64,000 nt of DNA. It comes from Thermophagus xiamenensis (GTDB taxonomy: Bacteria > Bacteroidota > Bacteroidia > Bacteroidales > Marinilabiliaceae). Under the pieces are notes generated by a model. The model made no database searches. It saw nothing but the letters and a program-made list of their open reading frames with translations, and had not been told where the DNA came from. Positions 29,946 to 62,418 of the stretch are shown here, one piece after another. The position numbers and the translations under genes are program-made. Numbering within the stretch: position 1 is the stretch's first letter; the number at the start of each line of letters is the position of its first letter. The DNA lies in contig NZ_FONA01000010.1 of the NCBI RefSeq assembly GCF_900112795.1, positions 62,001-126,000 of the forward strand. The letters run 5' to 3'.

Positions 29946-30070
29946 GGATTTTGCTACTGCAGCCTTTCATCGCCCGGAAATGTTTTCCAACCGGCAGCAT
30001 GGCATCTGCAGGCTTATTGGGATTTTTAAGCCATGCCTGAAATATTCTTATAAATGATGCAGAAAAAATA

Positions 30071-30173
30071 GTTGAGGATGCCTGATTTTAAACCACTTTA
30101 CCCTGTGCCTGCGAAATGTTGCAAGAGCGTTGGCACTTATTCAGGGTATCATAATTTGTCAGGCATCCTCAAC
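30071..30173. other. 103-base nested inverted repeat (structured element)
   Basis: GTTGAGGATGCCTGA at 30071-30085 pairs perfectly with TCAGGCATCCTCAAC at 30159-30173 (15 bp). Inside lie a second stem ACCCTG (30100-30105) with CAGGGT (30142-30147) and an inner GTGCC/GGCAC pair. It sits between two convergent genes and is followed by CTTTTTG on the plus strand. It could be a terminator-like RNA, a short mobile element with 15-bp ends (no target duplication seen), or a cruciform. No coding potential. Confidence 0.6.
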
Positions 30174-30236
30174 CTTTTTGCCGAACTGTTACCACCGCTT
30201 TAATTCACCTTATTGCTGACATCCTCTTTCCCAAGG

Positions 30237-30890
30237 TTATTCACTGCGCACCAGCAATCCTAATTTTTCGAGCAATTGGGGTTTATCCATTAAGGCCAGT
30301 TTGGCCACGTTCTTGTAAATGTTGACCCAGTCCTGCAACTCATCAATCTTTTTGTCTCGGTCAACCGTGGCCTGTTGCGCTTCGCCGGCTTCCCTCACCT
30401 GTTCACGCATCGCCTCTTCTATTGCATCCAATTCGGCCAGTCGCGAATCCAGATATTCGGTCGTAAAGCCCAATGGCGACATCCGGTTGAGCAATTCCTC
30501 ATGCTCTTTTATGTTGCTGTAAAAGTCGCGGGCTTTCCTCAACCATTCGCTTTTTCTGGTTTTACGACGGCCGGCCAAATGCAACATTTCCCAATAACCT
30601 GCTTCATCCTGAAACATGGCACGTGCCAAATCCCGGTGCAAGGCATAGGTCTCGTCAAAATTTTCTATCATTTCGTTAGCTTTCTGGGTGGCTTCATATT
30701 GTTCGGCATACTGTACGTTCTGGTCCTTATTCAAGGTTTCGGCTTCTTCCAATAACGTCAGGCCTTCATTAAGCTTTTCCGCATCATAACCATAAGCCGA
30801 AACCCGTCCCGAAATTTCCCCATCGCTGATGCTGTTGCGAATGAGGATATCGCTGTTATGCAAGAGGTCTGTTATTTGTTTGTTGTTCAT
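30237..30890 (-). CDS. Uncharacterised helical protein
   Basis: I do not recognise a family with certainty. The 217 residues are almost all alpha-helical by composition, rich in Glu, Ala and Leu, with no signal peptide, membrane segment or cysteine. Features are LAGRRKTRKSEWLRKARDFY, a region around residues 135-170 likely to form a coiled coil, and a helical end (LALMDKPQLLEKLGLLV). It looks cytoplasmic and structural. The gene is alone, and the plus-strand neighbour converges on it across the nested hairpin. Confidence 0.65.
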   Translation of the reverse strand: MNNKQITDLLHNSDILIRNSISDGEISGRVSAYGYDAEKLNEGLTLLEEAETLNKDQNVQYAEQYEATQKANEMIENFDETYALHRDLARAMFQDEAGYWEMLHLAGRRKTRKSEWLRKARDFYSNIKEHEELLNRMSPLGFTTEYLDSRLAELDAIEEAMREQVREAGEAQQATVDRDKKIDELQDWVNIYKNVAKLALMDKPQLLEKLGLLVRSE

Positions 30891-31063
30891 AGTTATTCGG
30901 GTTTACGGTTTCAGCATTTGTTTTATTTAGCAACATCAAGTATCATTTTTTCAGCCTACAGTTCTTTGCGGATAACCTTCATGGCGAATAAACAATTCGT
31001 TTGCCGTTTAATGGGCTCATTATCAATGCTGATAATCGCCCCCCGGAGCATCACCTACGGAAA

Positions 31064-31121
31064 CGGGCCGGAAAGTAATGGGTACGGGAAATTGCAGCCA
31101 CTTATTGACCTTTCCGGCCCG
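31064..31121. other. 12-bp perfect hairpin flanking the 20-bp repeat array
   Basis: CGGGCCGGAAAG (31064-31075) and CTTTCCGGCCCG (31110-31121) are perfect complements around a 34-base loop. A T-rich tail (ATTGTTTTTTT) follows on the plus strand, so it may stop plus-strand transcription or mark the edge of the repeat array that starts 40 bases later. Confidence 0.55.
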
Positions 31122-31160
31122 TAACTATTGTTTTTTTGCGAATAACATCTTGATATTTCC

Positions 31161-31580
31161 GGTGAAAACGAAAATTTTCCGGTGAAAGTCAAAATTTGCC
31201 GGTGAAAATGAAAATTTCGCGGTGAACATGAAAATTTGAAGGGGAATGTCAAAAATTCGTGGTGAAAATGAAAATTTTGCGGTGAAAACGAAAATTTTCC
31301 GGTGAAAGTCAAAATTTGCCGGTGAAAATGAAAATTTCGCGGTGAACATGAAAATTTGAAGGGGAATGTCAAAAATTCGTGGTGAAATTGAAAATTTTCC
31401 GGTGAAAACGAAAATTTCTCGGTGAAAGTCAAAATTTGACGGTGAAAATGAAAATTTCGTGGTGAATATGAAAATTTGAAGGGGAATGTCAAAAATTCAC
31501 GGTGAAAATGAAAATTCTTAGGTGAATTCAATATATTAAAGAGAAATTCAAATTTTTTCCGGTAATCGCGAAAATATTGC
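31161..31580. repeat. 20-bp tandem array with phased A-tracts
   Basis: Twenty-one units of exactly 20 bp, each built as GGTG-AAAA-tg-AAAATTT plus three variable bases, run without a single insertion or deletion; the last three are degenerate. There is higher-order order: 31161-31260 and 31281-31380 are identical, a 120-bp period of six units. A-tracts recur every 10 bases, one helical turn. The array is stop-free in several frames only because the unit lacks stop triplets in any phase. Confidence 0.9.
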
Positions 31581-31669
31581 GGTAATGACAATAAAAACCT
31601 CACCGCCCGTTTGAGGGCCTGCTTTATTCGTCGTTTCACCTGATTATGGATAAGATAGCTCTTCATGGT

Positions 31670-33400
31670 TTGGTTTATAACTATGATTCAGTTTTACATT
31701 GTTTATAAACCACAGAACATTCGCAACTCATCCAACCGGTTATCTAATCTGATTTTTCCCGGATGAAACGAGCATGACAATGAGAGATTTTCACAAAAGA
31801 GAATGTATAAAACTCTTTGTCATGCGAGTTCCATCAGGCCAATGAATTAGATAAATTTTATACTGATGAACATACCCTTCTTCTCACACATAAACAGATG
31901 AACGTTTTCGGGACTTGCTTTAATCAAATAATGGATGTGCTCTTTGGCTCATCCCCTTCGGCGCCCCTGACCGTAAGAAAATGTTATTGGTGTTTTATTA
32001 TGAAAAGTTTAATATGACCTTAATCTTTATCAACCATTCGATAGAATGTATAATCCAAATAATTTTTTTTAAACCTCATTTATTTGAATATCAGCATTTG
32101 CAGTCGTGAAATTAATAATGATTTTAAAATTTGTCAAGAGTCAATATTATATTTTTTTTGGCCTTATTTCAACTTTTGGGTTTGGTTGCATTATTTGATG
32201 ATATTTTTGGCCGGAAGTCAGAAGCCAGAGGTCAGAAGCCAGAAGCCAGAGGCCAGAAGCCAGAAATATAAAAAGGATATAATTTGAAATAAATAGAAAT
32301 AAAGTAGATATAAATAGATTGGTTTTTAATTAGTTAGAGATGTGTTAATTCTAGCAACCTATTGGCCTATCGGCCTAATGACCTAGTGGCCTAAAAGTGT
32401 TAGCCGCGGAGCGGCGACAGACCGGTAACAAGGATGTAACTACTATCCATCAGAGCCCCGGAGGGGCGGCAGAATGCTCACCGGAGTTAATTACCACGAA
32501 CAACTCTAGTCTTATATCTAATAATCTTACATCTAACAATCTAACATATTACACTGTGAAACTCTGTGTATCCACTGTGTAACACTGTGAAAAAAAGAAC
32601 ACAGAGAGCCACAGAGGCCGGAAGCCGGAAATCAGAAGCCAGAGGCCAGAAGCCAGACGCTAGAAGCTAGAAATGATTAAAGGATATAATTTGAAATAAA
32701 TAGAAATAAAGTAGATATAAATAGTCACGCCTCTAATTGTTAAATGCTTTAAAATTGTGGTCGCCGGAGCGTTAGGCATTGATACTCTGTGATACACTGT
32801 GCATCCACTGTGAAACACTGTGTAAAAAATGAACACAGAGGCCGGATGTCAGAAGCTAGAAGCTGGAAGCTAGAAGCCGGAAGCCAGAAGCCAGAGGTCA
32901 GAAGCTTGAAATATAAAAAGATATAATTTGAAATAAATAGAAATAAAGTAGATATAAATAGATACCGGTAGCCATAAGATGGATATAAATTGCGTGCAAA
33001 AAAATTAGCCTAACATTCTATTGCCTAATAGCCTAACAGCCTAACCCCCTATTGGCCTAATGGCCCAATGACCTAATAGCCTAACCGCCTAATAGCCTAA
33101 TAACCTAACCGCCTAGCGGCCTATTGGCCTATCCGCCTAATAGCCTATTAGCCTGACAACCACCAACAACTTTTGACTTATATCTAATAATCTTATATCT
33201 AACCATCCTACATCTTCACATTTATCTTGCTCTGTGCCTAAAATGGGAATAAGGAAACCCACAACGACGGGGTTACTGAGAACTAAGCAGAAAATCTATT
33301 GAGGATGCTAGTGGGGTAACCCTTTTATTTACATTGCATTAGGATGTTTTGTCTTTTTTTGTAAATTTATGTGTCTTTTTGGTCTGTTTTTGAACAAACA
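31670..33400. repeat. Repeat-rich non-coding island upstream of the CRISPR locus
   Basis: No convincing gene. Contents in order: a partial dispersed element (31762-31868, GATGAAACGAGCATG to TTTTATACTGATGAA), 7-bp AGAAGCC-type array (about 32212-32265), 8-bp array (about 32352-32395), REP-like hairpins GCCGC/GCGGC (32403-32415) and GCCCC/GGGGC (32455-32467), ATCTAATA-type repeats, two blocks of AGAAGCC units (about 32615-32675 and 32840-32905), repeated CACTGTGAAACTCTGTG phrases, and a long 8-bp CCTAATRG array (about 33005-33165). Near 33270-33322 GGGTTAC and GTAACCC pair, followed by TTTTATTT, a possible plus-strand terminator. Confidence 0.8.
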
Positions 33401-33412
33401 AGGCTTGTATTA

Positions 33413-33497
33413 GTAAAAAAAAGCGAGGCCATGTAGACCCCGCTTTAAATGTTTTCACAACGGAATAATCCTTATTGTGAATTGCTTCAAAATGTAA
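33413..33497 (-). ncRNA. tracrRNA of the type II-C CRISPR-Cas system
   Basis: On the minus strand, 33496-33475 reads TACATTTTGAAGCAATTCA and on to CAA, complementary to the first 24 bases of the crRNA-sense CRISPR repeat with one bulged base. It is followed by a second segment around GGATTATTCCGTTGTGAAAA and an intrinsic terminator: stem 33438-33446 with 33420-33428 (one G-U pair) and eight U (33415-33422). A TATAATTG box with TTTG about 20 bases upstream on the minus strand fits a promoter. Length would be about 85 bases. It is divergent from cas9. Confidence 0.88.
33420..33446 (-). terminator. Intrinsic terminator of the tracrRNA
   Basis: AAAGCGGGG and CCTCGCTTT (minus-strand reading) form a 9-bp stem with a 9-base loop, directly followed by a run of eight T on the minus strand. 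Confidence 0.85.
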
Positions 33498-33562
33498 AGC
33501 AATTATATAAAGAAAAATTCGGAAAAACAAATCAAGTTGATAACTCTATAATATATGGATTT

Positions 33563-36500
33563 ATGAAACGAATTTTAGGACTTGACCTGGGAACTAACTC
33601 AATTGGGTGGGCTCTGGTTGAAAACGATGAAAATGATAGAAAAGGAAAGATAATAGGAATGGGGAGTAGAATAATTCCCATGGATATGAGTGAATTAGAT
33701 AACTTTAATAAGGGAGCCAGCATTTCCAAAACAGCAGAGCGAACACGATTACGGATGACACGCAGACTAAGGGAGCGGCATCTTTTAAGGCGTGCCCGAT
33801 TGCATCGAATACTAAACATTATGGGTTTTCTGCCCGAGCATTATAGAAATTCGATTGATTTTATTGATAAAAAAGGTTGCTTTTTTGAGGGACAAGAACC
33901 CAAGATTGCCTATAAACCGGATAAAAATAGTGAGCAATTTTGCTTTTTATTTACTAGTTCCTTTCATGAAATGCTAGAAGATTTTCGGAAGTTTCAACCT
34001 GAATTGATACAAAACCGAAAAAAAGTTCCCTATGACTGGACTATTTACTATTTGCGGAAAAAAGCTCTTACTCAAAAGATATCTAAAGAAGAACTGGCTT
34101 GGATAATTTTAAACTTTAATACCAAAAGAGGTTATTATCACCTGAGGGGAGAGGATGAGGACAATCAAGACAATAAGAAGATTAAGGAATTCCGAGCTTT
34201 GAAGGTTGTTAATGTTACAGAGCGTGAAGGTGCCAATTCTTCAGGGAAAAAATGGTATGATATGGAGTTGGAAAATGGATGGGTGTATTCCAGACAAAGC
34301 AATTTACCGCCTAACCTTGAAGGAAAGACCATTGAGTTAATTGTTTCTTATACTCTGGACAATAATGGGAATATTAAAAAAGACAAGAATGGTAAAGAAA
34401 AGTATTCTTTAAGTATGCCGGGGGAAGAGGACTGGAATCTTGTGAAAATAAAAACTGAAAATGATTTAAAAACTAGCAAAAAGAGCGTGGGAGAATATAT
34501 TTATGACCATTTATTAAAGAATCCCGATCAGAAGATTCGTGGAAAACTTATTAGTACCATCGAGCGTAAATTTTACAAAGAGGAGCTTAGCCGGATTTTA
34601 AAAACACAAATGAATTTTTATGAAGAATTGAAAAACAGGGAGCTTTACCAAAAATGTGTGGAGGAACTCTATCCTAATAATAAATCTCATCAACAAACCC
34701 TTTTACAAAAAGATTTTATCCATCTCATTGTTGAGGATATCATTTTTTATCAGCGGCCATTGAAAAGTAAACGTGCTTTTGTTAACAATTGTCCTCTGGA
34801 ATATAGGGTATATGTGGATAAAAAAAGTGGTGAGCTGATAAAATCGGGTGTAAAATGTATTCCTAAATCGCATCCTCTTTTTCAGGAATTTCGTTTGTGG
34901 CAATATGTCCGGAATTTAAGAATATACGAGAGAGAGCGGATGGTTAATGGACGATTAATGGTGAATGTTGATGTCACCAATGAGTTACTCCCTGATGAAG
35001 AGCATATTGTTAGATTGTTTGATTTATTAAATGATCGCAAGAGCTTTAAACAAGATGATGTTTTAAGATTTGTTGGAATTAAGTCACCTAAGGACCGAAA
35101 AAGATATAGCTGGAATTATCCTGAAGATAAAGAACTTCCTGGCAATGAGACTCGTCACTTGATTCTTGCTTGGTTGAAAAAAGTGGATGGAGTCCCTGAA
35201 GACTGGTTAGACCCCGAAAAATTGAAAGCATTGTGGCATTTGCTATATTCGGTTACTGACAGGGAAGAGATAATAAAAGGACTTCATTCTTTTGCAAAAA
35301 AATATGAACTTCCGGACACCTTTGTCGAGCATTTTAAAAAAATTCCCCGACTGGAACGCGAATATGGTTCCTTTTCGGAGAAAGCCATAAAAAAATTATT
35401 ACCCTTGATGAGAATGGGTAAGTATTGGAAAGCTGAAGAAATTCCGGCCGACCTGTTGGAAAAAGCTCAAAAAATTATAGATGCAGAAGCTGATGATCGG
35501 ATTAGTGACGAGGTTAGAGAAAAACTACTGCATTTAAAGGATATTTCTCAGCTGAAAGGACTTCCCTTGTGGCAAGCATCCTATTTGGTTTATGGACGAC
35601 ATTCTGAGACAGGAGAAGTGGTGAAATGGAGAACTTCTGAAGACCTTGAAAAATATATTTTACAATTTAAGCAACACTCTTTGCGAAACCCCGTTGTTGA
35701 ACAGGTCATTTTAGAGGCCTTACGGGTTGTTAAGGATATTTGGGAGCATTACGGGGAAGGAAAGGAAGGATTCTTTAATGAAATTCATGTGGAAATAGGC
35801 CGGGAATTAAAAAATCCGGCTGATAAGAGAAAGAAAATAACCAGTCAAATTCAGGAGAATGAAAATACCAATTTAAGAATAAAGGCTCTGTTGGAGGAAT
35901 TGTTTAATGATCCTTCCGTTAAAAATGTCAGGCCATATTCTCCTGCCCAACAAGAAATTTTAAGAATATACGAAGATGGAGTCCTTAATGGGCAAAAGGA
36001 GATCCCAGATGATATTCTTAAAATTTCAAAAATGGCCAGGCCAAGTAAAAGTCAGCTGGTTAAATATAAGTTATGGCTTGAACAAAAATACCGTTCGCCA
36101 TATACCGGCGAAATAATTCCTCTAAGCCAATTATTTACTTCTGCATATGAAATTGAGCATATTATTCCACAGGCTAGATATTTTGATGATTCTTTTAGTA
36201 ATAAAGTGATTTGTGAGGCTGAGGTTAATCGTGAAAAAGGACATCAGCTCGCTTTTGAATTTATCACTAAAAGGGGAGGTGATGAAATAGAACTTAATTT
36301 CGGGAAAAAGGTCACAATACTCAATGTTGAAGAGTATCAGAAATTCGTGAAAGATCATTATGGACGTAGTCTTCGATCTCTTTCAAAAATGAGAAAATTG
36401 TTGATGGAGGATATTCCCGATGATTTTATTGACCGACAGCTAAATGATAGCCGGTATATTAGCAAGGTGGTACGTAATCTTCTTTCAAATATAGTAAGAG

Positions 36501-38107
36501 CGGAAGATGAAAATAGTCTTGTTTCTAAACATTTAATTACCTGTACGGGGGGAGTAACAACCAGACTTAAGCATGAATGGGGCCTAAATGATGTGTGGAA
36601 TGAGTTAATTACACCTCGTTTTGTAAGATTAAATAAGATGGGCAAGGAAAAATTTGGAGAGTGGATTAATAAAAAGGGTAAGCAGGTCTTTCAAATTCAA
36701 ATGCCGCTTGAGCTTCAGAAAGGTTTTAACAAAAAGCGAATTGACCATCGACATCATGCCCTGGATGCTTTAGTGGTTGCTTGTGCTTCCCGAAGCCATG
36801 TTAATTATTTGAATAATGATTCGGCCAGGGCAAATGCTTCAGAAACACGCTATGATTTGAGGAATAAATTGTGCTATAAAGACAAAACAGATTCGAACGG
36901 AAATTATAGGTGGAAGTTTTATAAACCCTGGGAATCTTTTACTGAAGAGGCTAAAAATAGGCTGGCCGGTACAGTGGTTAGCTTTAAATCCAATCGCCGA
37001 ATAATGACCAGGTCATCAAACAGATATTTTAAATGGGTAGATACCTCTGAAGGTAAGAAAAAGAAATTGGTTCGCCAGATTAAAGGAGACAATCAGGCTA
37101 TAAGGAAACCTTTGCATAAGGATACGGTGCTTGGAAAAGTTTCTTTGAGAAAAGAAAAAAAAGTATCGCTTTCCAAGGCCATTGATTTATGGGAAAGCAT
37201 CGTTGACAAACCTTTAAAGAAACGGATTCAATCGTTAAGAGAGCAGGGCTATGATAAAAAGCTATTGTTAAAGTATTTCAAAGACCGTAATAATCAATTT
37301 AACGGTCAGGATATTTCCAGGGTTAATATCTATTTTTTTGATAATAATCTGGCTGCGCGCCGCGTCACCCTGGATGCTTCTTTTAATAGCGAAAAACGAA
37401 TTGATGGAATTACTGATTCGGGTATCAAAAAAATTCTTTATGCTCATCTTCAAAATGAAAAGTATCACGGCAAAAAGGATGAAAAGGGGAATGAAATATC
37501 CCCCTATGAGTTGGCTTTTTCGCCCGAGGGACTGGAAGAGATGAATGCAAATATTAAGAAACTAAATGGAGGTAAACCGCATTGTCCGATTTATAAAGTA
37601 AGGTTGGCGGAGACAATTGGCGAAAAATTTAAGTTGGGTGAAAAAGGTAATAAGAATAAAAAATATGTGGAAGCGGCCAAAGGAACTAATTTATTTTTTG
37701 CCGTTTACGTCGATGAAAAGGGAGTAAGGAGCTTTGAAACCATTCCTTTTTCAGTGGCATTGGAACGCAGGAAACAAAAATTGGCAGTAGTCCCTGAAGA
37801 AAATGAAAATAAGGAAAAATTGTTGTTTTATCTTTCGCCCAATGATTTGGTTTATGTCCCCGACGAAGATGAAAAACTGATAGATTATCGTCAATTATCG
37901 ATTAATCCGACTAGAATTTATAAAATGGTATCTTCTTCTGGAACACAATGCTTTTTTATTCCTCATTTTGTGGCAAGTCCCATTGTTCAAACTATGGAGC
38001 TTGGGCCCAACAACAAGTCCGAACGTGCCTGGGATGGGCAAATGATAAAAAATGTTTGTTATAAACTCTCTGTGGATCGATTAGGTAATGTCAAAATAGA
38101 AAAGTAA
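33563..38107 (+). CDS. cas9: CRISPR-associated endonuclease Cas9, type II-C
   Basis: This 1514-residue nuclease has RuvC-I with Asp8 (GLDLGTNSIGWA), an Arg-rich bridge helix (TRRLRERHLLRRARLHRIL), RuvC-II with Glu744 (IHVEIGREL), the HNH domain with His866 (EIEHIIPQ) and Asn889, and RuvC-III with His1065 and Asp1068 (HHALDAL). All catalytic residues are present, so both strands of target DNA should be cut. The first ATG after the tracrRNA gene (33563) gives the RuvC start; an in-frame extension to 33449 is only antisense tracrRNA. Size is at the large end for II-C but usual in Bacteroidota. cas1 and cas2 follow; csn2 and cas4 are missing, which defines II-C. Confidence 0.97.
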   Translation: MKRILGLDLGTNSIGWALVENDENDRKGKIIGMGSRIIPMDMSELDNFNKGASISKTAERTRLRMTRRLRERHLLRRARLHRILNIMGFLPEHYRNSIDFIDKKGCFFEGQEPKIAYKPDKNSEQFCFLFTSSFHEMLEDFRKFQPELIQNRKKVPYDWTIYYLRKKALTQKISKEELAWIILNFNTKRGYYHLRGEDEDNQDNKKIKEFRALKVVNVTEREGANSSGKKWYDMELENGWVYSRQSNLPPNLEGKTIELIVSYTLDNNGNIKKDKNGKEKYSLSMPGEEDWNLVKIKTENDLKTSKKSVGEYIYDHLLKNPDQKIRGKLISTIERKFYKEELSRILKTQMNFYEELKNRELYQKCVEELYPNNKSHQQTLLQKDFIHLIVEDIIFYQRPLKSKRAFVNNCPLEYRVYVDKKSGELIKSGVKCIPKSHPLFQEFRLWQYVRNLRIYERERMVNGRLMVNVDVTNELLPDEEHIVRLFDLLNDRKSFKQDDVLRFVGIKSPKDRKRYSWNYPEDKELPGNETRHLILAWLKKVDGVPEDWLDPEKLKALWHLLYSVTDREEIIKGLHSFAKKYELPDTFVEHFKKIPRLEREYGSFSEKAIKKLLPLMRMGKYWKAEEIPADLLEKAQKIIDAEADDRISDEVREKLLHLKDISQLKGLPLWQASYLVYGRHSETGEVVKWRTSEDLEKYILQFKQHSLRNPVVEQVILEALRVVKDIWEHYGEGKEGFFNEIHVEIGRELKNPADKRKKITSQIQENENTNLRIKALLEELFNDPSVKNVRPYSPAQQEILRIYEDGVLNGQKEIPDDILKISKMARPSKSQLVKYKLWLEQKYRSPYTGEIIPLSQLFTSAYEIEHIIPQARYFDDSFSNKVICEAEVNREKGHQLAFEFITKRGGDEIELNFGKKVTILNVEEYQKFVKDHYGRSLRSLSKMRKLLMEDIPDDFIDRQLNDSRYISKVVRNLLSNIVRAEDENSLVSKHLITCTGGVTTRLKHEWGLNDVWNELITPRFVRLNKMGKEKFGEWINKKGKQVFQIQMPLELQKGFNKKRIDHRHHALDALVVACASRSHVNYLNNDSARANASETRYDLRNKLCYKDKTDSNGNYRWKFYKPWESFTEEAKNRLAGTVVSFKSNRRIMTRSSNRYFKWVDTSEGKKKKLVRQIKGDNQAIRKPLHKDTVLGKVSLRKEKKVSLSKAIDLWESIVDKPLKKRIQSLREQGYDKKLLLKYFKDRNNQFNGQDISRVNIYFFDNNLAARRVTLDASFNSEKRIDGITDSGIKKILYAHLQNEKYHGKKDEKGNEISPYELAFSPEGLEEMNANIKKLNGGKPHCPIYKVRLAETIGEKFKLGEKGNKNKKYVEAAKGTNLFFAVYVDEKGVRSFETIPFSVALERRKQKLAVVPEENENKEKLLFYLSPNDLVYVPDEDEKLIDYRQLSINPTRIYKMVSSSGTQCFFIPHFVASPIVQTMELGPNNKSERAWDGQMIKNVCYKLSVDRLGNVKIEK

Positions 38108-38176
38108 TAATTATAAAAAGAGTGGGTTTAAAGTGAAAAGGCTTGGATGGGTCTGGGGTTTTAATTCAGAATCATT

Positions 38177-39431
<1,255 letters not shown>

Positions 39432-39435
39432 AAAA

Positions 39436-39457
39436 AAAGCCCGGGAAACCGGGCTTT
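39436..39457 (+). terminator. Intrinsic terminator of the cas operon
   Basis: AAAGCCCGG (39436-39444) pairs with CCGGGCTTT (39449-39457) around a GAAA tetraloop and is followed by further T. It starts 5 bases after the cas2 stop and precedes the CRISPR array, separating operon and array transcription. Confidence 0.9.
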
Positions 39458-39535
39458 TTAATGTTTTTAATAGCCATTTTTTAATTCTAAATTTCAAGAT
39501 AAATAATTGAAATTCAAGTTTTAATGGCGTGGTAT

Positions 39536-41549
39536 GCTGTCAGCAATACTACAAAAATACATTTTGAAAGCAATTCACAACACAAGTATTATGATTCTAA
39601 TTATAAAGCATGCTGTCAGCAATACTACAAAAATACATTTTGAAAGCAATTCACAACACAAACAATAACATTAGGTTTATATCTTTGGCTGTCAGCAATA
39701 CTACAAAAATACATTTTGAAAGCAATTCACAACTTCTTTTGCGGCGGGCATATGGTCCAAAACGCTGTCAGCAATACTACAAAAATACATTTTGAAAGCA
39801 ATTCACAACCCTTTTTAGTACTGTGAGACGCTAAAATCCGCTGTCAGCAATACTACAAAAATACATTTTGAAAGCAATTCACAACTATGCAATGTCTAAA
39901 TTTTAATACCATGAAGCTGTCAGCAATACTACAAAAATACATTTTGAAAGCAATTCACAACTAAACACAGGTAAAATAAAATATTATGAATGCTGTCAGC
40001 AATACTACAAAAATACATTTTGAAAGCAATTCACAACCTAAAAAAACTGATGATTATGTGTGGAAAGGCTGTCAGCAATACTACAAAAATACATTTTGAA
40101 AGCAATTCACAACAGTGGCACTCATTGTTCCAATACCTACATTGCTGTCAGCAATACTACAAAAATACATTTTGAAAGCAATTCACAACTACCTAAAACC
40201 TTTTTCCTAATTTTTTCTGCTGTCAGCAATACTACAAAAATACATTTTGAAAGCAATTCACAACACCTCCTTTGCTACTACTGATTTCTTTGTTGCTGTC
40301 AGCAATACTACAAAAATACATTTTGAAAGCAATTCACAACCCAACTCGAACCACCATTTGTAGTCTTTTGGCTGTCAGCAATACTACAAAAATACATTTT
40401 GAAAGCAATTCACAACATTATGGAAAATAAAAGAAAATGCGTTTAGCTGTCAGCAATACTACAAAAATACATTTTGAAAGCAATTCACAACCTTCAGCTG
40501 TTACATCCTCATACAAAAGGCCGCTGTCAGCAATACTACAAAAATACATTTTGAAAGCAATTCACAACTCAGTTCCCAACCAAGTGCCTTCGTAATATGC
40601 TGTCAGCAATACTACAAAAATACATTTTGAAAGCAATTCACAACGGTGGAATGAAGTTGAGCGTGTAAAAATAGCTGTCAGCAATACTACAAAAATACAT
40701 TTTGAAAGCAATTCACAACATTTCTGGGTCTTTTAAATCTGGTGGCTCTGCTGTCAGCAATACTACAAAAATACATTTTGAAAGCAATTCACAACTATAA
40801 TTAAATCAGTTAATCTTTTTGAGTAGCTGTCAGCAATACTACAAAAATACATTTTGAAAGCAATTCACAACTATTGGTAATGCCATAATCAATTGCCCTC
40901 CGCTGTCAGCAATACTACAAAAATACATTTTGAAAGCAATTCACAACCTGCCTTATGCGCTGATTGCGGTTGGTGGGGCTGTCAGCAATACTACAAAAAT
41001 ACATTTTGAAAGCAATTCACAACAGGTTCTCCGGATAGTCACCTGTATATTCAGCTGTCAGCAATACTACAAAAATACATTTTGAAAGCAATTCACAACT
41101 AGTAGCCGTAACTCCGCTTTCAGTTATTAGCTGTCAGCAATACTACAAAAATACATTTTGAAAGCAATTCACAACCAAGTCTCGCCAGCTCTGTTTGAAG
41201 TTCTAGCTGTCAGCAATACTACAAAAATACATTTTGAAAGCAATTCACAACTTATTTCTTGCACATCTCCATGAACTACCTGCTGTCAGCAATACTACAA
41301 AAATACATTTTGAAAGCAATTCACAACTTTTAACCCGCAGCGTATGCTCCCAACTTTGCTGTCAGCAATACTACAAAAATACATTTTGAAAGCAATTCAC
41401 AACTTTTAACCCGCAGCGTATGCTCCCAACTTTGCTGTCAGCAATACTACAAAAATACATTTTGAAAGCAATTCACAACACGAGCAGATAAACGGAAATA
41501 TAAGGACAGGCTGTCAGCAATACTACAAAAATACATTTTGAAAGCAATT
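39536..41549 (-). CRISPR. CRISPR array: 27 repeats of 46 bp, 26 spacers
   Basis: Repeats start at 39536 and every 76 bases; spacers are 30 bases except numbers 9, 12 and 15 (29) and 13 (31), counted from the left. The plus-strand repeat starts GCTGTCAGCAATACTAC and ends AGCAATTCACAAC. The tracrRNA anti-repeat shows that crRNA sense is the minus strand, where the repeat begins GTTGTGAATTGC. The last repeat at the right (41510) keeps only the first 40 bases and runs into an ATCTAAAA satellite. Spacers 24 (41328-41357) and 25 (41404-41433) are identical. The AT-rich left flank (39458-39535) is a possible leader. Confidence 0.98.
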
Positions 41550-42765
41550 ATCTAAAAATCTTACATCTAAAAATCTAAAATCTATATCTCTAACATTTCT
41601 CTGTGAAACTCTGTGTGCCCACTGTGTAACACTGTGAAAAAATGAACACAGAGAGCCACAGAGATAAAAATCATAATTTTCGAAATGAGATAAAATGTGT
41701 CACACCTACGGCGTTTCGATTCCATCTGCAATCAAAGTCTACCATAATCAGGCACCTAATGGCGCCAAATAAGGATATAGGTTGAAATAAATTGAAATAA
41801 TGTAGATACAGGTAGCCATAAGATGGATGTTAATTTCGTGCAAAAAAATTAGCCTAACATTTTATTGCCTAATAGCCTAACTGCCCAATGGCCTAATAGT
41901 CTATTGGCCTGTCATCAGGCACCTGACGGCGCCAAATATTGGGCATAAAGTAAGCTTGATTGTGAATTTTTTTTAATGCCGTTAGGCATGAAATTTTGGT
42001 AGAAAGCGGTTAACAATATTCAGGAAATGCCGTAGGCATGACATTTAGGGTAGGATGGTGAGATGGTTGAATGGTCGGAAGGTAGCCGCAGAGCGGCGGA
42101 AGAATTTAGGCCATTAGGTCATTAGGAAAATAGGCCAATAGGAGATTGATTAGAAGGGTGAGGGCAGTTGTAAGTCCCTTACGCTCACCCCCCAACCCCC
42201 TGAAGGGGGTGCGCCGGCGCGCGGAAGCCGGAAGCCAGAGGTCAGAGGCCAGAGGCTGGAAATCAGAAGTCAGAAGCCAGAGGCTAGACGCCAGAAGCTG
42301 GAAATGATTAAAGGATATAAGTTGAAATAAATAGAAATAAAGTAGATATAAATAGATATAGGTAGATATATGATGGATATAAGATTGTGTTGCCAAATTA
42401 GCCTAACATTCTACTGCCTAATGGCCTAATGGTCTTATTGCCTAGCAGCCTAATAGCCTAACCGCCTAATGGCCTATTGGCCTTGAATTTTAGCCCCGGA
42501 GGGGCGGCAGAGTGGTCACCCGGAACAAATTGCCACGAACAACTCTAGTCTTATATCTAATAATCTTACATCTAGCTTTCTCTATGAAGCAATTTATCAA
42601 AAATATTCTGCCGGTTATTATTTGTCTGTCATTTATGATTTTTTATGTATCTTCGTTATGTTAAAATATTTACAATATTGTTTTTATTGACTTGTAAAGG
42701 AATTAAACGTTAAAAGGAAGTATATACCTTAGCAAGCAATAAGAATAAACATAGTAAGTAAAATA
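41550..42765. repeat. Repeat island right of the CRISPR array, including direct-repeat copy A
   Basis: No gene is visible. 41550-41590 is an ATCTAAAA-type satellite fused to the last CRISPR repeat. 41601-42231 is copy A of a direct repeat also found at 45868-46524. REP-like palindromes ATGCC-GTTA-GGCAT (41976-41989), ATGCC-GTA-GGCAT (42027-42039), GCCGC/GCGGC (42085-42097) and GCCCC/GGGGC (42493-42505) are embedded. AGAAGCC-type (about 42225-42305) and 8-bp CCTAATRG arrays (about 42405-42482) follow. The last 150 bases are AT-rich and should hold the promoter of the next gene. Confidence 0.85.
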
Positions 42766-44025
42766 ATGGAAACAAAGATTAAAGAAAGTATTGATAATCC
42801 GGAGCAACTTGAAAAATTGTATCGAGCTGACAAGAAGAATTTCGAAAAATCATTCTTTTGCATTTATCCGGAAATTGCAGATTCTAAAATAGCTGATTTT
42901 TGGAAAGTAAGATTAGAATTTGATGCTCGGAGTGAAGCCAAATCGGGAACCAGAAAGACGGATGTTTATTTTCTGATAATTACTTGTTTCGTCACCGGTT
43001 TTTTAATCAAAATACCTCAAATATTTAATGTAGAACTGAACGACTATTTCTTCTATGAAAAAAATGCCGGGTTAATATTGTTTTTGGGATTGTCGGCGTA
43101 TACATTTCTTACAAAAATGCAGATTAATTATAAGCACCAAATAACATCAATTATAGTCTTTGGTTTATCTGCTATATACATCAATTTATTGCCCTCCAAT
43201 CGAGACAGTGATTCAATAAATTTAGCCTATTTACATTTACCTTTGTTTTTATGGTGTTTTTATGGTTTGATTTTTATTGACTTTGATATAAAGGACAAAA
43301 CAAAAAGGATTGATTACATTAAGTACAATGGCGATATAGCTATTCTGACAGCCATAATCTTGGTGGCCGGCGGCATATTAACCGTCATAACTATTGGCTT
43401 ATTTTCGGCCATCGATTTAAATATTGAGGAATTTTATTTCGAGAATATCGTGATTATTGGGGCTGTTTCATCTCCTATTGTTGCAACGTATATCGTTAAA
43501 AATTTCCCTTCAGTAACCAATAAGCTTGCTCCAATAATTGCGACTATTTTTAGTCCTTTGGTTCTTATTACTCTAATTATCTACCTGATTACTGTCGTCA
43601 ATACAGGGAAAGACCCCTATAATGACAGAGACTTTCTTGTTGTTTTCAATATAATGCTTTTAGGTGTTATGGGAATCATTGTATTCTCGGTATCTGAGGC
43701 ATCGGAAAATAGGAGACGGAGTTTTAATGAGTTGACACTATTTATCTTGTCAATAGTCACGCTGATAATAGATTTAATAGCGCTGTCAGCCATACTTTAC
43801 AGATTGGGAGAATTTGGTTTTACGCCAAATAGAACTGCGGTTTTAGGTTCCAATCTATTGATATTTGGACATCTGGTTTTAATAATGCTTGATTTGTATA
43901 AGGTTGGATTTAAGGAGAATGACATTAAAACAGTAGAATTGACAATTTCCAAATATTTACCTGTATATGCCGTTTGGACCATCTTTGTGACTTTTGTTTT
44001 GCCGTTTATATTTGAATTAAAATAG
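42766..44025 (+). CDS. DUF4153-like integral membrane protein
   Basis: This 419-residue protein has a soluble N-terminus of about 65 residues (ending SGTRKTDVY) and then about ten membrane helices. Pattern and order resemble the DUF4153 family: a first helix after KTDVYFLI, a QINYKHQ loop and a later PSVTNKLAPIIATIFSPL segment. No catalytic motif is seen and the function is unknown. It is flanked on both sides by repeat islands and has no operon partner. Confidence 0.6.
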   Translation: METKIKESIDNPEQLEKLYRADKKNFEKSFFCIYPEIADSKIADFWKVRLEFDARSEAKSGTRKTDVYFLIITCFVTGFLIKIPQIFNVELNDYFFYEKNAGLILFLGLSAYTFLTKMQINYKHQITSIIVFGLSAIYINLLPSNRDSDSINLAYLHLPLFLWCFYGLIFIDFDIKDKTKRIDYIKYNGDIAILTAIILVAGGILTVITIGLFSAIDLNIEEFYFENIVIIGAVSSPIVATYIVKNFPSVTNKLAPIIATIFSPLVLITLIIYLITVVNTGKDPYNDRDFLVVFNIMLLGVMGIIVFSVSEASENRRRSFNELTLFILSIVTLIIDLIALSAILYRLGEFGFTPNRTAVLGSNLLIFGHLVLIMLDLYKVGFKENDIKTVELTISKYLPVYAVWTIFVTFVLPFIFELK

Positions 44026-60930: not shown

Positions 60931-62418
60931 CTAATTTATCTTTTTTCCCCAAAAAGAGAACCCATTTTCAGAAATTCCTGAAAAAAGAATGGTAGTTTTT
61001 TTATTTTCCCAATCCCACCCACGGAAAATGGCATGAGGATAGTTGTTGATATAAAGGATATTATTTTTAATTCGCCACGATTTGTATAAGTGTGAGGTAG
61101 TAGAGCCATTAGTCAGAAATTTAACTGTATCGGCCAGGTTAAAAGCCTTAGGGGTGTATCTCCATCCTCCGGGCGGAATTTGCCCCTGCCATAGGTCTGA
61201 TATAGGAGCTCTTTCATCAAGTTGAATAATTTCCCATTGTCCAGGGATTTCGCGGCTTGATATTTTTTTTAGATCCGTACCGGCATATCGTTGGGGTGAT
61301 ACTACCGGCCAACCATCAGGAAGCCAAAATATTTCCCGGACATGTAAAAGCATCATCAAATTGGAGGGTGCCAACCTTCCCTGGTGAACCATATAAAATT
61401 TTCCGTTATCGTTAAGAATGCCGCAGTGTCCGTTGCCCGACCAACCAGGATGATTGCCAAATCGGTAGCTATGTGTCAAAACTGGAAAATTATCGGTAGT
61501 ATCACTTAAATTTTTTCCAAAGTAATCGAAATAGGGTCCCTGAGGCTGGTCTGCCCGACCAACTCGAACATTGTAATAAGTGAACAAAGCGTCATAAGAA
61601 ACAAAGAGGTAATATTTCTCATTTTTCGGATTATATATTACTTCAGGAGCCTCAAGGTTGTGCGTTTTTAGATTTGCTCTCGAAGCAACCAGATGTCCTT
61701 TATCTCCTTCATGTTTGATGAATCCGGTTTGTGGATCCAGCTCTACACAATATAGGCCTCCAAAAAAGGAGCCATAATGCATCCACATTCTACCATTTTT
61801 GGCATCGGTAACTACAGAAGGATCGATGGCATTCATCTTGTCATTAGGTGTGGTTTTAATCACACATCCCTTGTGTTTCCATGGTCCCAGTGGATGAGGT
61901 GCCGTTGCCAATCCAATATAGGATGAATTGGTTCCAAACGCAGATACGGAATAATACATTCTGAATTCATTACCTACCTTTTTGACATGAGGTGCCCAAA
62001 TGTTCGTGGCCCCTTCACCCTTATTGTGTTTACGGACATGGATTACCGCCTCTTGGGGAATTTCCGGAAGTGCCCAACCCTCAAAATTCCAATTTATCAG
62101 GTCATGGGAGCTTCTCATTTGGATATTTCCCGGACGGATAGTATCATCATTGAATTTAATTCCGCGAGGTCGGTAGATGGCATCGGTTGAATATAAATAA
62201 TAAGTGTTGTTATGTTTGATTATTGAAGGATCGTGCACATTGTAAGGACCCCATTTATGTCGATTACTGAGGGAAGTATATGAAGAATAATCATCTTCAT
62301 ATGGGTTATTGCCTACGGTAGGGAAAGGATTATTTTTTTTAATGTTTGAAGAACAGCCTGCAATTACGAAAATAAAAATAACTACTGTAACAGACGAAAA
62401 AAATGAAGTTAATCTCAT
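60931..62418 (-). CDS. GH43 arabinan endo-1,5-alpha-L-arabinosidase-like lipoprotein
   Basis: This 495-residue protein has a lipobox (IAGC, Cys22) and a GH43 five-bladed propeller: VHDPSIIKHNNTYYLYST with the general base Asp, NAIDPSVVTDAKNGRMWMHYGS, and the acid in EAPEVIYNPKNEKYYLFVSY. The segments WSGNGHCGI and REIFWLPDGWPV are typical of endo-arabinanases. A C-terminal domain of about 100 residues follows. It should cut arabinan in the periplasm or at the surface. It is divergent from the hybrid sensor at 62787, the likely regulator. Confidence 0.88.
   Translation of the reverse strand: MRLTSFFSSVTVVIFIFVIAGCSSNIKKNNPFPTVGNNPYEDDYSSYTSLSNRHKWGPYNVHDPSIIKHNNTYYLYSTDAIYRPRGIKFNDDTIRPGNIQMRSSHDLINWNFEGWALPEIPQEAVIHVRKHNKGEGATNIWAPHVKKVGNEFRMYYSVSAFGTNSSYIGLATAPHPLGPWKHKGCVIKTTPNDKMNAIDPSVVTDAKNGRMWMHYGSFFGGLYCVELDPQTGFIKHEGDKGHLVASRANLKTHNLEAPEVIYNPKNEKYYLFVSYDALFTYYNVRVGRADQPQGPYFDYFGKNLSDTTDNFPVLTHSYRFGNHPGWSGNGHCGILNDNGKFYMVHQGRLAPSNLMMLLHVREIFWLPDGWPVVSPQRYAGTDLKKISSREIPGQWEIIQLDERAPISDLWQGQIPPGGWRYTPKAFNLADTVKFLTNGSTTSHLYKSWRIKNNILYINNYPHAIFRGWDWENKKTTILFSGISENGFSFWGKKIN

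Follow-up and report, generated by a model that had tools for sequence, protein, structure and literature searches.

A predicted primary-sigma promoter within each repeat of a type II-C CRISPR array of Thermophagus xiamenensis

How a type II-C CRISPR array of the Bacteroidota is transcribed, from its own repeats or from a promoter outside, is the question raised by a locus of Thermophagus xiamenensis. The matter is unsettled for this phylum, as two Flavobacterium papers propose a TTG repeat promoter and a Riemerella paper reports none in the repeat. The window, i.e., the whole stretch of 64,000 nucleotides that was analysed (positions 62,001 to 126,000 of contig NZ_FONA01000010.1), features the type II-C gene set of Cas9, a type II Cas1 and Cas2 in the order cas9-cas1-cas2-array, with a tracrRNA gene and its anti-repeat recognized by sequence and fold:

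33415..33507, minus strand: predicted tracrRNA gene, consisting of TTTG-N20-TATAATTG, anti-repeat and terminator-like hairpin
33563..38107, plus strand: cas9 (TIGR01865)
38177..39115, plus strand: cas1, type II (TIGR03639)
39090..39431, plus strand: cas2 (TIGR01573)
39434..39459, no single strand: terminator-like hairpin in the gap between cas2 and array; either strand folds (z -4.7 and -4.5) and provides a U tract
39536..41549, minus strand (crRNA sense): CRISPR array, 27 repeats of 46 nt and 26 spacers of 29-31 nt
39552..39559, minus strand: TATTTTTG box (crRNA-sense positions 23-30) of the repeat that comes first in plus-strand order
41510..41549, minus strand: leader-distal terminal repeat, crRNA-sense positions 1-6 gone, box and 3' part retained

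The cas9 reading frame starts at 33449, but its match to the family sets in at residue 42 of this long frame, close to the ATG at 33563, which lies outside the tracrRNA gene. The best named relatives of this Cas9 are found in Phocaeicola massiliensis (54% identity) and Prevotella nigrescens (48%). No fourth adaptation gene was detected, the other reading frames of at least 90 amino acids in 32000-42100 being antisense to cas9, cas1 or cas2. The box of the tracrRNA gene, TATAATTG, starts at 33507, deviates from TAnnTTTG in one position and is preceded by TTTG-N20 (spacing counted by eye); transcription is predicted to start at 33495, with a T-A step as in the window repeat (by eye). The anti-repeat (33496-33475, minus strand) matches repeat positions 2-24, and a hairpin with a U tract at about 33446-33420 ends the gene (fold z -5.5 for the stretch). 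A search of 30000-44000 against Rfam yielded no match at gathering scores. The crRNA strand of the array is fixed as the minus strand because of the polarity of this tracrRNA gene upstream of cas9. Besides, repetitive phrases (cagaagc..., cctaatagcc..., cacagagagccac...) flank the locus on both sides (32600-33240 and 41570-42060), and two neighbouring spacers near the leader-distal end (41328-41357 and 41404-41433) are identical, i.e., an internal duplication.

The exact TAnnTTTG which a sequence-only reading had reported for every repeat is indeed present at crRNA-sense positions 23-30 on the minus strand in 27/27 copies, always as TATTTTTG, and constitutes a promoter-like element as judged by sequence. 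It agrees with the consensus of the primary sigma factor of the Bacteroidota, described as TAnnTTTG at -7 and TTTG near -33 (PMC7366714); in the account given there, genome-wide analysis of Flavobacterium johnsoniae did not recover the -33 motif. The copies are exact in 26/27 cases, the leader-distal one being altered, and a single repeat forms no hairpin (fold z 0.19). The spacing of 18 bases proposed for the upstream GTTG was likewise recovered, with TTG at repeat positions 2-4 standing 18 bases before TA in 26/27 copies and missing from the terminal repeat. The earlier proposal that each spacer is placed under its own promoter is probably right: conservation, strand and a control at tracrRNA genes, all drawn from sequence, make it likely that each 46-nt repeat acts as a promoter for the primary sigma factor of the phylum, starting at A35 and transcribing its own spacer. 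Most tests able to set a promoter apart from chance or tracrRNA pairing favour it.

As one box copied 27 times represents a single event, chance has to be tested by comparison with other repeats. Cas9 was searched by TIGR01865 in 394 genomes of the phylum and 294 of the order, with 65 and 122, respectively, passing the cut-off, and the stretches around 157 of 177 listed Cas9 places were examined. Arrays were detected de novo from repeated 18-mers, blind to the box, and were present in 127/214 loci (short duplicates included). Orientation of the repeats by their 5' end, with 4/129 rows dropped, yielded 77 long and 34 short distinct repeats; after merging two pairs that agree over their first 43 bases and omitting one cut-off row, 75 long (44-49 nt) and 33 short repeats (36-37 nt) were counted, the window repeat being among the 75. 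A box was counted as an exact TAnnTTTG after repeat position 17, with 2,000 dinucleotide shuffles as the null. The Cas9 tree comprised 113 rows, and changes per column were counted on 74 long-repeat rows. Plasmid records added nine loci, six of them with an array by the same method.

The check that had been called for, i.e., conservation of the box in other Bacteroidota II-C repeats, turned out in favour of the proposal, as 50/75 long repeats contain the exact box (shuffles: mean 2.9, sd 1.7, maximum 9; about 0.04 expected per long repeat) and only 1/75 does on the opposite strand. Moreover, TAnnTTTG is the commonest of all gapped words of the form XYnnWXYZ in the long repeats. Among the 25/75 without an exact box, 21 match with one mismatch (shuffle mean 6.2, maximum 14), leaving four without a box even at this level. 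The short repeats feature an exact box in 4/33 cases, three of the four being close relatives, which is above the shuffles (mean 0.4, maximum 3 in 1,000), and a box with one mismatch in 7/33 (mean 4.4, maximum 11). The named relatives P. massiliensis and P. nigrescens carry TATCTTTG at position 24 of a 47-nt repeat, and the 36-nt repeat of Persicobacter shows TACCTTTC at 24 by eye, with one mismatch. No box was found on either strand of the 36-nt repeats of Pigmentibacter, Ilyobacter and Azospirillum, three plasmid-borne arrays which form the whole control from other phyla.

Counted along the Cas9 tree with the repeats anchored on the box, the columns of the motif changed as T6 A5 n13 n15 T1 T0 T7 G8, and the flanking columns 14-38 times. 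The six fixed columns thus total 27 changes. With the same anchoring, the lowest totals were 63 among 29 permuted motifs and 33 among 300 random ones; such anchoring biases the counts in favour of any motif used. A blind MAFFT alignment shows a less pronounced dip: the six box columns changed 5, 7, 4, 5, 14, and 14 times, the two free columns 12 and 17 times, the ten columns after the box 19-38 times and the five before it 9-21 times. The promoter reading gains support from TA and TTTG being conserved more tightly than nn, and from the restriction of the box to one strand. As a separate observation, seven long-repeat loci (L162, L165, L166, L168, L176, L212, and L220) form a clade nested within a short-repeat Cas9 clade, for which a swap of the array, a swap of Cas9 or convergence are candidate readings.

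A positive control is offered by the tracrRNA genes, for which 77 anti-repeats were available that lie close to cas9 and run antiparallel to the gene. Within 60 nt before the anti-repeat, TAnnTTTG occurs on the tracrRNA strand in 46/77 loci and on the other strand in 6/77, and in 35/45 rows listed the box begins 8-14 bases ahead of the anti-repeat. Both sets of boxes share a pyrimidine at +11 (85% of repeat boxes, 81% of tracrRNA boxes) and a purine at +12 (81% and 72%); the combination of a pyrimidine and A at these places was seen in 29/48 repeat boxes and 22/47 tracrRNA boxes, where column permutations gave means of 8.5 and 9.6, related rows not being independent. At +8 the two sets differ, as repeats favour A and tracrRNA boxes C or T. 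That the same box and the same pyrimidine-A step occur at tracrRNA genes further supports the promoter reading. The window repeat has T-A at +11/+12, and its start is therefore predicted at A35 (plus coordinate 39547 in the first copy). This is five bases past the box and within the last dozen repeat bases, where the start had been expected.

The upstream element is less easily assessed. The TTG at positions 2-4 sits in the pairing end and is present in 74/75 long repeats anyway, so that a -33 function cannot be judged from conservation. In the window, the candidate reads GTTG and not TTTG, with a spacing of 18 as opposed to 19-20 in 25/47 tracrRNA boxes, which are most of those that contain a TTG. 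The distance from TTG to TA is 18-23 in 48/50 long-box repeats and exactly 18 in 24/50. In four repeats (L088, L130, L137, and L167) the box is displaced toward the spacer, with GATCTTTG at 32 or 34, 20-22 bases from a second TTG at 9-11. Displaced GATCTTTG boxes were also observed in repeats from viral contigs (L237, L252, and L280).

It is quite unlikely that the mid-repeat TATCTTTG is kept not as a promoter but as a landmark for integration by Cas1-Cas2, or by descent. A fixed distance from box end to repeat end, as a landmark might use, is possible in view of the 16 bases in 30/50 and 13-17 bases in 48/50 long repeats; still, the displaced boxes end 7 or 5 bases before the repeat end, and the same box and start step are found at tracrRNA genes, which are not integration sites. 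Descent, for which the mere 2 changes of length class on the Cas9 tree could speak (the exact box changes 16 times), is opposed by the divergence of the flanks but not of TA and TTTG, and the motif fits the sigma consensus including the loose nn.

It is very unlikely that the repeat boxes are idle and a single promoter outside the array, at its leader-distal end (about 41.6 kb, minus strand), drives transcription. The minus strand contains no exact box between the array and 42605, about 1 kb away, which is the nearest one upstream; a promoter of another sigma factor would find room here, as the argument is based on motifs. A sigma-70 promoter scan gave 13 sites compared with 9.1 in shuffles (sd 3.1), i.e., no excess. 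Among 39 long-box arrays with at least 200 nt upstream, boxes within 250 nt upstream are not enriched (6/39 on the crRNA strand, 9/39 on the opposite strand), and a box within 200 nt upstream of long-repeat arrays (9/59) lies at scattered distances. External promoters may be used by some arrays with 36-nt repeats, since 8/32 short-repeat arrays show a box on the crRNA strand, all at 92-133 nt upstream, the repeats of these loci (L100, L101, L109, L112, L170, L174, L193, and L218) being themselves without a box. At the other end of the window array, the hairpin at 39434-39459, judged by its fold and U tracts, could stop both the cas transcripts and minus-strand array transcripts, as convergent transcription would need. 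A terminator pattern scan listed this hairpin on the plus strand only and found one site in total, with a shuffle mean of 1.9, so that the terminator count alone proves nothing. The lack of upstream enrichment together with the two-strand U-tract hairpin at the cas2 end adds to the support for promoters in the repeats.

The frequency of boxes near genes had also been considered as proof of their use. In a looser count, 250 sense and 269 antisense boxes upstream of genes in 725 regions showed no strand bias. A stricter count gave 66 sense vs 42 antisense boxes in 52 long-box loci (2.00 vs 1.27 per kb, with 0.76 in convergent gaps) and 136 vs 111 in all 154 loci, and the window alone, too small a sample, contributed three sense and two antisense boxes. 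The bias in the stricter count is modest. This argument was dropped and the tracrRNA control used instead.

That the box is kept for tracrRNA pairing in crRNA maturation is scarcely credible: pairing accounts for the strong conservation of the first 17 repeat positions, and the anti-repeat extends into TTTG or beyond in 4/36 long-box loci with an anti-repeat near cas9, but it covers the whole box in only one of them, and in 22/36 it stops 0-2 bases past the box start. Pairing, which ends at the box in most loci, therefore does not explain the box. In Flavobacterium psychrophilum, a 55-nt crRNA was described as sufficient in vitro (PMC12609912), corresponding to 30 spacer and 25 repeat bases by subtraction. 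Since such a crRNA is enough and pairing stops at the box, the box and the 3' part are seemingly not kept for the mature guide. Transcription in the opposite sense from a leader on the cas2 side, in line with the leader-driven mode described as usual outside II-C (PMC8092290), has next to no probability, as tracrRNA polarity fixes the crRNA strand and only 4/52 long-box arrays have a box on the leader side that points into them.

According to the reading with one promoter per repeat, TTG at 2-4 would serve as the -33 element, 18 bases ahead of the -7 element TATTTTTG at 23-30. The polymerase would start in each repeat, copy the last 12 repeat bases and the entire spacer, and run into the next repeat, whose transcribed 5' part would pair with the tracrRNA. 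Transcription would head to cas2 and the presumed spacer-acquisition end and would stop at the hairpin between cas2 and array (39434-39459). Spacers newly added at the cas2 end would in this case bring their own promoter, which, if true, would explain the immediate expression of a spacer added at the transcription-distal end.

Variation within arrays was surveyed in 854 inner copies from 55 arrays, omitting copies with N or more than eight mismatches. The distinct substitutions are too scarce to reveal constraint on the box: one in the six box columns, one in nn, 12 in the pairing part, four in the link and 10 after the box, and all listed copies changed in the box stretch stem from one degenerate array (L108). 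The leader-distal repeats of 81/83 arrays could be used (one was masked by N, one was not a repeat), 32 of them intact and 49 changed. Where the consensus box lies before position 31, 26/30 changed terminal repeats retain it; across these 30, positions 1-16 differ in 5-16 repeats each and the box columns in 0-2. This pattern fits selection on the promoter part, and plain decay of the outer end predicts the same, so that it is given little weight. Remnants further out, inspected by eye, kept the box in L087, L110, and L136 and lost it in L072, L076, L108, and L143, with 22 arrays too near an end to view.

Solitary repeats occur in viral contigs. Repeats acting singly as RNA anti-CRISPRs are known (PMC10651486, the main text of which does not use the term II-C). 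Here, 70 viral stretches match the 5' part of the repeat, 59 of them once only, counting recognizable copies; 15 of these 59, picked by eye, were inspected. Single, near full-length II-C repeats were seen in intergenic DNA, e.g., at L233:2306-2351, and also in L242, L245, L248, L252, L268, and L293. The repeat of L233 adjoins phage genes for exonuclease VIII and a NinB-like protein and fills the entire intergenic gap, following directly on the stop codon and overlapping the next ATG with its last two bases. A solitary viral repeat is a candidate for an RNA anti-CRISPR, a captured promoter, or both. Tentatively, and with considerable doubt, the 44-49-nt repeats of Bacteroidota II-C arrays in general might be self-contained promoter cassettes that include the start base as well as the -33 and -7 elements. 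The 10-11 bases by which they exceed the 36-nt class would then serve to place the start ahead of the spacer, the two lengths would reflect two modes of transcription, and bacteriophages would have taken single copies into intergenic regions, maybe as promoters of the next gene, as tracrRNA decoys or as both.

Promoters embedded in repeats also occur in Campylobacter, and in Neisseria a sigma-70-type -10 lies at the 3' end of a 36-nt repeat. For Neisseria meningitidis, repeat-embedded promoters in type II-C arrays are described in PMC5006608 and cited in PMC8092290 and PMC10309648. Common to Neisseria and the window are a Cas9-Cas1-Cas2 locus with tracrRNA, one promoter per repeat (predicted for the window) and, as proposed here, crRNA transcription toward the acquisition end. 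The analogy drawn earlier, with a different sigma consensus, stands: the window has TAnnTTTG in the middle of a 46-nt repeat (23-30) and no embedded promoter of the Neisseria type, and in contrast to Neisseria its start would lie inside the repeat, the whole spacer being copied.

Within the phylum, arrays differ in what has been described. In the parts of PMC5006608 dealing with CRISPR1 of Riemerella anatipestifer (47-nt repeat), no promoter is reported in the repeats, and leader promoters are predicted with the BDGP neural-network tool. This locus shares its plan with the window and has a 107-bp leader and a 16-nt anti-repeat upstream of cas9 (PMC5006608); the contrast in promoters is one of descriptions. 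For the II-C arrays of Bacteroides fragilis, the leader could not be assigned according to PMC5704556. The Flavobacterium arrays resemble the window in that a repeat-encoded promoter is proposed (PMC8092290, PMC10309648). The F. columnare array, with 36-nt repeats, was described as transcribed toward the leader on the basis of eight reads, with TTG named as -33 (PMC8092290). For F. psychrophilum, RNA-seq of the array is presented, the 46-bp repeat places a TTG 35 bp ahead of each spacer, and TAnnTTTG is assigned to the promoter of cas9 and not to the repeat (PMC10309648). Within the repeats, only the TTG (-33) is named in these accounts. A literature search outside supplements and most subscription journals returned no paper that places TAnnTTTG (-7) in a CRISPR repeat. 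The present comparison supplies the -7 element, the start base and the spacing, tied to the long-repeat class; while repeat promoters are known elsewhere, this version, its conservation in relatives and the predicted start base look new.
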